From positions 186,001-250,000 of the forward strand of contig NZ_JAFLNE010000004.1 of assembly GCF_017313225.1 (NCBI RefSeq): a DNA stretch of 64,000 nt. Reading direction: 5' to 3'. The position numbers were made by a program, and so were the translations under genes. Each line of letters begins with the position of its first letter. Within the stretch, counting starts at the first letter, position 1. Positions 36,252 to 58,259 of this stretch are shown one piece after another. Under the pieces are notes generated by a model. That model had not been told where the DNA came from and searched no databases. It saw nothing but the letters and a program-made list of their open reading frames with translations. This DNA is from Allomuricauda sp. CAU 1633. GTDB lineage: Bacteria; Bacteroidota; Bacteroidia; Flavobacteriales; Flavobacteriaceae.

Positions 36252-36347
36252 ATGACTTACAAAAACGTTTCCCATCGCCACAACAATAGGGGGTTTCACA
36301 ACAATAATTTCATTTGTGGGGACTCTGGTGGTACATTTACAATGTAA
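36252..36347 (+). CDS. Possible 31-residue peptide
   Basis: A short ATG frame in the gap after the DM13 gene, rich in Asn, His and Gly and ending ICGDSGGTFTM. A terminator-like hairpin follows about 48 bases later, so a short plus-strand transcript may exist here. Nothing else supports it, and it may be chance. Confidence 0.2.
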   Translation: MTYKNVSHRHNNRGFHNNNFICGDSGGTFTM

Positions 36348-36394
36348 TTAAAATAGAAAGTAATTTTTTCATTTTCATATAGTGTTCTCGTAAA

Positions 36395-36426
36395 AGAGTC
36401 TTGACCCAAGTGGCAAGGCTCTTTTT
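36395..36426 (+). terminator. Terminator-like hairpin
   Basis: AGAGTCTTG (36395-36403) pairs with CAAGGCTCT (36414-36422) through nine pairs including one G-U, followed by TTTT. No annotated gene ends just upstream on this strand, so it either ends a short transcript or is part of the neighbouring repeat cluster. Confidence 0.5.
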
Positions 36427-36458
36427 GGTTTACAGCCCTTTTGTAAATGGTAGTTCGA

Positions 36459-55725: not shown

Positions 55726-56589
55726 ATGAGGCAGTTAAAAATCATCAAACAGGTCACCAACCGAGAATCCAAATCCCTTGACAAATACCTACAGGACATC
55801 AGTAAAATTGATTTGATTACTGCTCAAGAGGAAGTGGAATTGGCCCAACGCATTAGAGCTGGGGATCAAGTGGCCTTGGAAAAGTTGACGAATGCCAATT
55901 TGCGATTTGTGGTCTCAGTGGCAAAACAATACCAAAACCAAGGACTCAAGCTTCCTGATTTGATAAACGAGGGAAATGTAGGTCTTGTTAAGGCTGCCAA
56001 GCGATTTGATGAAACCCGGGGATTCAAATTTATATCCTATGCCGTTTGGTGGATTCGACAATCCATTCTTCAGGCGTTGGCGGAACAATCCCGTGTAGTG
56101 CGATTACCTTTAAATAAAATCGGTTCCATCAATAAAATCAAAAAGACTTTTTCCTACTTGGAGCAGGCCCATGAGCGACCACCTTCCGCGGAAGAAATTG
56201 CCAAGGAGCTGGACATGACGGTCTCTGAAGTAAAACAATCTTTAAAAAATACAGGTCGACACGTTTCCATGGATGCACCGTTGAAAGAAGGTGAAACCTC
56301 CAATTTATATGATGTGCTCAACGCTGGGGATTCCCCTAAACCGGATAAAGGACTCATGCACCAATCGCTGAATACGGAAATCAACAGGGCTTTGGACACG
56401 CTTTCGCCTCGTGAGGCGGACGTAGTCCGGTTATATTACGGTATTGGCGACCAACCTTCCATGACCTTGGAAGAGATTGGCAGCACCTTTGATTTGACCC
56501 GTGAGCGGGTACGACAAATACGGGAAAAAGCCATCCGTAAGCTGCGGCATACTTCAAAAAGTAAGATTTTAAAATCGTATTTGGGTTAA
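55726..56589 (+). CDS. rpoD: RNA polymerase primary sigma factor
   Basis: A 287-residue sigma-70 of the short Bacteroidota type that lacks region 1.1 and the non-conserved insert. DKYLQDI is region 1.2; [37 protein letters not shown] and [15 protein letters not shown] are regions 2.1-2.4; region 3 follows; and region 4.2 is [27 protein letters not shown] near the C terminus. It recognises the TTG/TAnnTTTG promoters noted elsewhere in this window. It ends in a strong terminator. Confidence 0.96.
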
Positions 56590-56605
56590 GCCCAAACAGA
56601 GAATA

Positions 56606-56636
56606 AAAAAGGGGATGTCAAAAACATCCCCTTTTT
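56606..56636. terminator. Strong bidirectional terminator after rpoD
   Basis: GGGGATGT (56611-56618) pairs with ACATCCCC (56624-56631) around a 5-base loop; A bases lead in and TTTTT follows. It ends rpoD, and by symmetry also the minus-strand micro-ORFs that stop 20 bases away. Confidence 0.9.
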
Positions 56637-56656
56637 CATGATATTCACTTAAACTA

Positions 56657-56758
56657 TCAAGGTCTGCTCAACTGAGTAATATCAAAATCAGTAAGCATTT
56701 CGTTCAAACTTTGAATGAAATTCAAATAAGCGGAATTTTCTTGATTATGATTTTTCAT
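56657..56758 (-). CDS. Micro-ORF 2 of a tandem homologous pair
   Basis: A 33-codon frame on the minus strand encoding MKNHNQENS, then YLNFIQSLNEML, then an acidic and polar tail ending LSRP. Its central block aligns with that of micro-ORF 1, YLAFLQELNEIL, matching at 7 of 12 positions with conservative changes at others (I/L, M/I). The block would form an amphipathic helix. The two frames are 22 bases apart, on the same strand, ended by the shared terminator with rpoD. Duplication of so short a frame with the same hydrophobic pattern argues for coding. Confidence 0.5.
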   Translation of the reverse strand: MKNHNQENSAYLNFIQSLNEMLTDFDITQLSRP

Positions 56759-56780
56759 GATGAAGCGTTTGGGGTGTTAT

Positions 56781-56879
56781 CTATAAATAATCGAGTTCGG
56801 CTAGTTGGTTGATGCTCAAAATCTCGTTAAGTTCTTGTAAAAAGGCCAAGTATTCTTCTCCGTAGGTATCGTATAACAT
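56781..56879 (-). CDS. Micro-ORF 1 of a tandem homologous pair
   Basis: A 32-codon frame starting MLYDTYGEE, then the helix block YLAFLQELNEIL, then a tail ending LAELDYL. It is acidic and has no basic residue. It precedes micro-ORF 2 on the same strand with a 22-base gap; about 119 bases separate it from the end of the gene at 56999-57355, enough for an own promoter, although no clean TTG/TAnnTTTG pair was found. Function unknown. Confidence 0.5.
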   Translation of the reverse strand: MLYDTYGEEYLAFLQELNEILSINQLAELDYL

Positions 56880-56998
56880 GGTAATCTTGTGGTTTAATTG
56901 TTTGGGTCTTTGTTATAACGTGAATCTATTGTAAAGATTATGGTGAAACAATAAATTGTGGTGAAATCCTATTTTTTGGTTGTAAAAATGAGACCCGT

Positions 56999-57355
56999 TC
57001 ACTTTTCCATTTCCATGATATCCAAGGTCACCTCAAAATCTAACTCAGAATCGACCTTATTGGGTCGTATATTGAATTCATCGTAGATGAAACACAGGTT
57101 CATGGGCAATCGCCTTTTCTCCCTTTCTGAGATAACTCCTAATTTTTCTTGCAATGCAGATTTAACCTCAAAAGCTTTATTGCTGATTTTGGGGTCACCG
57201 CTGCTCTCCAATTCCTCCAGAAAAGGAATCTCTTTTTTGTCGCCAACCTCCAACATTTGATCCAATAGCATAAGCTTACATTTTACATCCGTGGTATGTT
57301 GGTACAAGGGATAAAAAATACTTTGCAGATATTTTGGCAGTTCATGGTCTTCCAT
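56999..57355 (-). CDS. Hypothetical protein, 118 residues
   Basis: A soluble, mixed-charge protein with no signal or membrane segment. The sequence is mostly helical at the N terminus (HELPKYLQSIFYPLYQHT) with one Cys in VKCKLMLLDQMLEVG, and ends in short strands (LDFEVTLDIMEMEK). I do not recognise a family. It starts 15 bases after the coiled-coil gene, so the two very likely form an operon. Confidence 0.75.
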   Translation of the reverse strand: MEDHELPKYLQSIFYPLYQHTTDVKCKLMLLDQMLEVGDKKEIPFLEELESSGDPKISNKAFEVKSALQEKLGVISEREKRRLPMNLCFIYDEFNIRPNKVDSELDFEVTLDIMEMEK

Positions 57356-58132: not shown

Positions 58133-58259
58133 TTTCTTTTCTTCCTATTGATTATTCGTATTAAAAATCAGGAATAGGTCATGGGATCCCAATTTATTGT
58201 TTTGTAGGTACTGGATTTTGTTGTCAAATTGCTTTATTTGTAGGTGTAAATAACCCACC

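Follow-up and report, generated by a model that had tools for sequence, protein, structure and literature searches.

Paralogous microproteins encoded beside rpoD in marine Flavobacteriaceae are probable members of a LytTR two-component regulon

Phenol-soluble modulins (PSMs) are short tandem helical peptides. They are controlled by the agr system, in which the LytTR regulator AgrA binds the psm promoters directly and to which the regulatory RNA RNAIII also belongs (available part of PMC5789755). MgrB, which has 47 amino acids, is a small protein of a two-component regulon and inhibits the kinase of that system, PhoQ (available part of PMC8404706). LytTR regulators act at direct repeats: in the portion of PMC6193735 at hand, sites have the form ACCACTTAC-12 bp-ACCACTTAC just upstream of the −35 element, published sites consist of 9-bp repeats with mostly 12-bp gaps, and LytTR-like operons of Bacteroides have 11-bp repeats with an 11-bp spacing. 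In the Flavobacteriaceae, Rfp18 of Flavobacterium psychrophilum is a conserved sRNA that has been linked to the expression of secreted proteases (available part of PMC9723704).

Here, we present an analysis of two adjacent microprotein genes, P1 and P2, in a window that comprises the whole 64,000-nucleotide stretch of DNA analyzed. We consider it quite probable that P1 and P2 belong to a LytTR two-component regulon and, as helical microproteins, function by binding a partner protein. Similar to MgrB-type proteins, they are shorter than 50 amino acids and would be expressed from a promoter belonging to a two-component regulon; unlike these proteins, P1 and P2 are paralogous, acidic, and have no membrane span by eye, and we claim no sequence relation. 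The locus also resembles the agr/PSM/RNAIII system, partly on the basis of general knowledge of PSMs, in combining a LytTR regulator with tandem short peptides and an RNA regulator; P1 differs from the PSMs in its near-invariance, weak amphipathicity, and acidic character, and no relation is claimed here either. The sRNA-like family described below resembles Rfp18 in being conserved in the Flavobacteriaceae, a likeness drawn from the part of the Rfp18 description that was available.

P1 (56781..56879, minus strand; 32 codons plus stop; peptide MLYDTYGEEYLAFLQELNEILSINQLAELDYL) is followed after 22 bases by its paralog P2 (56657..56758, minus strand; 33 codons plus stop; peptide MKNHNQENSAYLNFIQSLNEMLTDFDITQLSRP). 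The sequence and the list of open reading frames agree with the initial annotation of this DNA on the position and spacing of the two frames and also on the symmetric terminator that it described as closing them: a bidirectional terminator-like stem on the minus strand (56603..56639, read from 56639 to 56603) closes the P1-P2 unit. Because a T run ends the plus strand of this stem as well, the stem can also serve rpoD, a gene for a primary sigma factor (55726..56589, plus strand; Pfam Sigma70 r1.2, r2, r3, and r4) that is convergent with P1-P2 and lies outside the unit. Likewise outside the unit is an upstream gene encoding a 118-aa protein without a Pfam match (56999..57355, minus strand), which ends before the P1 promoter. 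Because 82 frames of at least 25 amino acids overlap the 6 kb around P1 and P2, the length of the two frames is no evidence of coding.

The initial annotation proposed that the two frames encode real small proteins, which would be contradicted by loss of the frames in relatives. In fact, the frames are kept. P1 and P2 each matched in 59 of 60 genomes of the same genus (E ≤ 2.1e-13 and E ≤ 2.1e-7, respectively), and the sole genome without either match, G038, is 79% complete. Among 397 genomes of the family sample, a search with the P1 sequence gave matches in 76 at E ≤ 0.05; the match in G225, which lies within a 390-aa frame, is probably due to chance. Profile searches of this sample, for which some of the matched genomes had contributed rows to the query alignment, detected P1 in 75 and P2 in 70 genomes, with a wide gap to the next-best matches in each search. 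Among the 80 listed of at least 119 stretches, the carriers include at least Flagellimonas, Allomuricauda, Maribacter, Zobellia, Arenibacter, Cellulophaga, Robiginitalea, Croceivirga, Croceitalea, Euzebyella, and Sediminicola. In 39 genomes of the same order from other families, no convincing match was found (best E 0.58 for P1 and 1.61 for P2), and as regards a phage origin, a degenerate P1 pattern had no exact match in viral contigs. Synonymous change is near saturation in both genes, and the pN/pS ratio is lowest in the coding frame, with 0.112 for P1 (pS 0.875; 187 unique sequences) and 0.283 for P2 (pS 0.835; 176 unique sequences). Change is concentrated on third codon positions, variability at positions 1, 2, and 3 being 0.138, 0.036, and 0.380 in P1 and 0.212, 0.136, and 0.414 in P2. 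On these sequence comparisons, P1 and P2 are protein-coding genes under strong purifying selection. In 93 distinct P1 peptides, 13 of 32 positions are conserved at ≥0.985; the near-invariant residues Y10, F13, L14, L17, N18, I20, and L21 suggest a specific binding face on the modeled helix.

Comparison of the P1 and P2 profiles aligned 23-24 columns (Prob 96%; E 3e-9 and 2.3e-9), and the P1 profile also retrieves P2 in many genomes (e.g., E 3.5e-4). After exclusion of L224, a partial P1 at a contig end, 195 unique loci were available, in 188 of which P2 comes after P1. P1 occurs without P2 in five genomes (G119, G155, G175, G347, and G385) and at locus L183. L262 has an altered P1 frame, and its sequence stops shortly beyond. 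The thioesterase from the upstream neighborhood in the window lies on the same side in both G119 and G347. The profile similarity and the P1-positive genomes without P2 support that P2 arose by tandem duplication of P1, as the initial annotation had supposed from the shared residues of the two peptides. Because the gap between P1 and P2 varies from 10 to 60 bases without a frame preference, P1 and P2 are two separate proteins. As a side observation, the P1-like peptide at L183:1260-1355 (minus strand) is from an uncultured Lacinutrix contig and has neither P2 nor the promoter described below; a different frame (MFGVDLEQKK...) lies downstream of it.

AlphaFold2 predicts that both peptides are mostly helical, with a helix from residue 8 to 23 in P1 (mean pLDDT 78; pTM 0.41) and from residue 4 to 23 in P2 (mean pLDDT 79; pTM 0.41). 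No named family was known for these peptides from the initial reading; similarly, P1, P2, and P3 (a third microprotein; see below) match no family in Pfam or NCBIfam, and searches against PDB sequences gave no match for P1 and six weak matches for P2, the best to a myosin (E 0.064). The amphipathic pattern that had been noticed in the two frames is present to a moderate degree only and is not exceptional: the hydrophobic moment of P1 is equalled by 184 and that of P2 by 255 of 2,000 shuffles of the same residues. The net charge of P1 is −7.

The initial annotation did not include the promoter upstream of P1, which is conserved and contains two repeats with a 21-bp period, nor the regulon that this promoter appears to define. 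The consensus of the aligned upstream regions is TTTYACAAC-N12-TTTCACCACA-N5-TTG-N20-TAnnTTTA. On the minus strand of the window, it is represented by a first half-site, ACAAC, at 56979..56983, which is conserved across carriers; a second half-site, ACCAC, 21 bp away at 56958..56962; a TTG at a −33-like position (56949..56951), the columns of which show a conservation of 0.92-0.97 across the 172 aligned promoters with a score of ≥13; and, at a fixed spacing to the second half-site, a −7-like element, TAGATTCA (56921..56928), which is an imperfect match to the carrier consensus TAnnTTTA. CACCACA is present in 154 of the 190 upstream regions, among which a distance of 21 from ACAAC to ACCAC was counted 127 times. 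We scored promoters (maximum 16) by a pair of ACMAC half-sites with a 21-bp period and by TAnnTTTR at a fixed distance, dropping five of the 195 unique loci that had too little upstream sequence. A score of ≥14 was reached by 164 of the resulting 190 P1 loci, including the window (15/16), compared with 0 of 570 mononucleotide-shuffled upstream pieces. The scoring rule was drawn from P1 loci and, therefore, its test lies in other loci, described below, to which it also applied. The 26 P1 loci below 14 include the five P1-only genomes examined and L183, all of which score at chance level. These low scores indicate that P1 is older than, or sometimes outside, the promoter; P1 may have existed before it became linked to this promoter. 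On both strands of the 64-kb window, three sites score ≥14, of which the two at 15 belong to P1 and to the sRNA-like gene described below; five shuffled windows yielded three sites, each scoring 14. The third site (58162-58224, minus strand; 14/16) is ∼30 bases before a gene for a 253-aa protein (58132-57371) and may be due to chance because shuffled windows also yield sites at 14.

A pattern scan of the window genome with up to three mismatches gave 27 sites, barely above the 19 in the reversed control; seven of these have zero to two mismatches. Three perfect sites precede the 35-aa frame of P3, a HisKA_2 kinase gene adjoining that of a LytTR response regulator, and a gene for a large DUF11-repeat protein with a signal-like start by eye. 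A site with one mismatch precedes a gene for a protein of 753 aa that carries Ig_7 and CHU_C type IX sorting domains; PorP/SprF comes next. Sites with two mismatches are found before P1-P2; at C1:1093875, where the site overlaps a coding frame; and at C14:53315, 430 bases before a 486-aa frame, the latter two being unexplained. Among weaker candidate sites with three mismatches, those before genes for an ECF sigma factor (L433:2175-2756, minus strand) and an OmpA/PD40 protein (L432:1043-3106, plus strand) mark possible regulon members. P3 (L329:5166-5273, minus strand; also L359-L370 and L401-L429), with a core pattern of roughly EEIQVYRNDFxSGxxxLxKKLFML, matched in 59 of the 60 genomes of the genus and in 30 of 199 from the family, has a pN/pS of 0.253 over its last 25 residues, and in genus loci is accompanied by a terminator-like hairpin by eye; the promoter precedes it in 10 of 12 genus loci and 20 of 29 wider loci. 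The locus of the type IX secretion system (T9SS) type-B protein, matched in 39 of 40 genus genomes, has a promoter score of 15 in 30 of 30 loci.

The second promoter copy in the window (36277..36339, plus strand; 15/16) is followed by an sRNA-like gene of a multi-copy family (36340..36430, plus strand), the predicted fold of which has a terminator-like hairpin. All 60 genus genomes match this family, with one to six matches each, sometimes in tandem, and 42 of 43 copies (30 loci) have a promoter score of 15 or 16. By reading, part of the sRNA-like gene shows complementarity to A-rich sequences around start codons, e.g., ATGAAAATGAAAAAATT. Predicted pairing of the RNA with P1-P2 or P3 mRNA was no better than with 100 mononucleotide shuffles, and targeting of these mRNAs was dropped as an explanation since the pairing lies within the shuffle range. 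Pairing with the 5' region of the kinase gene, the best of five, gave −38.6 compared with −31.8 (sd 4.2) for shuffles.

In the window genome, the LytTR response regulator gene, one copy of the sRNA-like gene, and the HisKA_2 kinase gene lie in a row (L328:3675-6926, minus strand; Pfam Response_reg, LytTR, and HisKA_2, and a TPR match of the kinase under the Pfam cut-off), with one promoter ahead of the sRNA-like gene and another ahead of the kinase gene. Of 30 regulator loci, 28 have a promoter site within 1.5 kb past the regulator stop; in shuffled sequence, 201,615 bases gave two scores of 14. A kinase match is found at exactly these 28 loci, while L382 and L397 have neither kinase match nor site. 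Across the 28 loci, leaving aside that of the window genome itself, the regulator is 82-92% and the kinase part ∼32-54% identical to that of the window genome. In a sample of 199 genomes, the regulator is present at ≥77% identity in 33 of 34 P1-positive genera; G119 has P1 and lacks a regulator match at E ≤ 1e-40. Two P1-negative genera have the regulator at 72-73% identity and one at 58%. All 30 P3-positive genera of this sample are also P1-positive, and the P1-positive genera without a P3 match are G119, G155, G175, and G200. Most of the genera that have P1, P3, and the regulator probably belong to a single clade and, therefore, their co-distribution represents consistency rather than independent proof.

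Because the kinase promoter in the same locus carries the repeats, we suggest that the LytTR protein is the best candidate for the regulator that would bind them. As far as the available part of PMC6193735 describes promoters of the HdrR, BrsR, and AgrA type, the sites reported here resemble them in having two direct repeats with a period of ∼21 bp near, and upstream of, the core promoter and a half-site that starts with ACC or ACA. Moreover, the regulator's own locus carries the site, at the kinase promoter, in an autoregulation-like arrangement. Of the two half-sites, ACCAC fits many of the published sites in that part of the source and ACAAC fits less well; the CTTA end differs, the half-site here being ACMACA followed by A/T rather than ACCNCTTAN. 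A further difference is the location of the site, which lies ∼25 bp away from a Bacteroidota-type −7 element. A regulator distinct from the LytTR protein adjoining the kinase could instead bind the repeats, as the genomes contain further LytTR-type regulators (e.g., G000:C16, 39% identity). However, the sites are at precisely those 28 loci of this regulator that also have the kinase, and the 21-bp period agrees with the LytTR sites in the accessible part of that report; we consider a different regulator unlikely.

Convergent neighbors are rarely functional partners. The initial annotation had raised the idea that P1 and P2 bind the adjacent primary sigma factor, and 179 of 191 testable loci indeed have a convergent rpoD no more than 800 bp away (four of the 195 unique loci were excluded as too short). 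The linkage is not invariant, however. Six of the 12 loci outside this rule keep both P1 and P2, and six have only P1. Among the former, rpoD is convergent at about 1 kb in L163 and L292, while no rpoD match is present in the 1.6-6.1 kb beyond P1 in L100, L153, L157, and L275, nor in L125, a 12-kb stretch from the genome of L100; rpoD is absent from the six P1-only loci as well. With invariant linkage as a weak proxy for binding, these four loci with both genes are exceptions, and the promoter connects P1-P2 to other genes. Synteny does not support the sigma factor as the partner, and we regard this interaction as very improbable. Even less credible is that the P1-P2 region is a regulatory RNA, the conservation of which merely resembles that of coding sequence. 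The unit is short and closed by a strong terminator-like stem, as such an RNA could be; however, the position of the pN/pS minimum in the frame, the P1-P2 gap that varies across all three frames, and Rfam matches that are all below gathering scores argue against it, and the non-coding explanation was rejected because variation sits on third codon positions.

Two further possibilities concern how the peptides would act. P1 and P2 might be secreted surfactant-like peptides that aid surface spreading, similarly to the agr-controlled PSMs; tandem paralogs, together with an sRNA and a T9SS surface protein under that promoter, would make up an agr-like logic. However, the hydrophobic moments are unexceptional and P1 is negatively charged, and its near-invariance across genera points to a specific partner more than to surfactant activity, making this function quite improbable. 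Alternatively, and as a narrower version of the explanation that we prefer, P1 and P2 could be feedback modulators of their own histidine kinase or LytTR regulator in the manner of MgrB and PhoQ. This idea, which we hold to be possible but doubtful, is in line with the placement of P1 and P2 within the inferred regulon, with the presence of the regulator in nearly all P1-positive genera, and with the precedent of small two-component-regulon proteins that inhibit their kinase (available part of PMC8404706). However, MgrB is located in the membrane, unlike the acidic and apparently soluble P1; P1 is present in G119 without a regulator match; and the kinase part is far less conserved than P1.

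Rather, we favor that P1 and P2 are helical microproteins of a LytTR regulon with a partner protein. According to this model, P1-P2 would be a short two-gene unit transcribed from its own promoter, with two ACMAC repeats and Bacteroidota-type −33/−7 elements, into an mRNA that ends at the terminator common to rpoD. The LytTR response regulator beside the HisKA_2 kinase would bind the repeats and, when the kinase is active, P1/P2, P3, and several near-identical small RNAs would be produced together with the T9SS type-B surface protein and its PorP/SprF partner. In the cytoplasm, P1 and P2 would most likely bind a partner protein via the conserved YxxFLxxLNxIL face of the helix and, thereby, may function as post-translational effectors or feedback modulators of an envelope, gliding, or adhesion response. 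Beyond the function of P1 and P2, we lean toward the idea that the marine Flavobacteriaceae possess an undescribed LytTR regulon that comprises at least three microproteins (32, 33, and 35 amino acids), a multi-copy sRNA family, and T9SS surface proteins. In such a regulon, P1 and P2 would be effectors at the protein level and the sRNA a parallel output at the RNA level that may target A-rich start-codon regions.

In searches of an open-access library, we found no report of this regulon or of the P1 and P2 peptides. Annotation readily overlooks conserved microproteins of less than ∼40 amino acids, the functions of which can rarely be addressed. By means of the common operator, three such microproteins gain a candidate regulator and likely co-regulated genes and, hence, a direct genetic test. 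Conversely, a LytTR two-component system of the Bacteroidota gains a defined and conserved set of candidate targets and, with it, a link to type IX secretion as well as to a family of multi-copy sRNAs. If our model is correct, then the conserved output of this regulon would be largely invisible to annotation.
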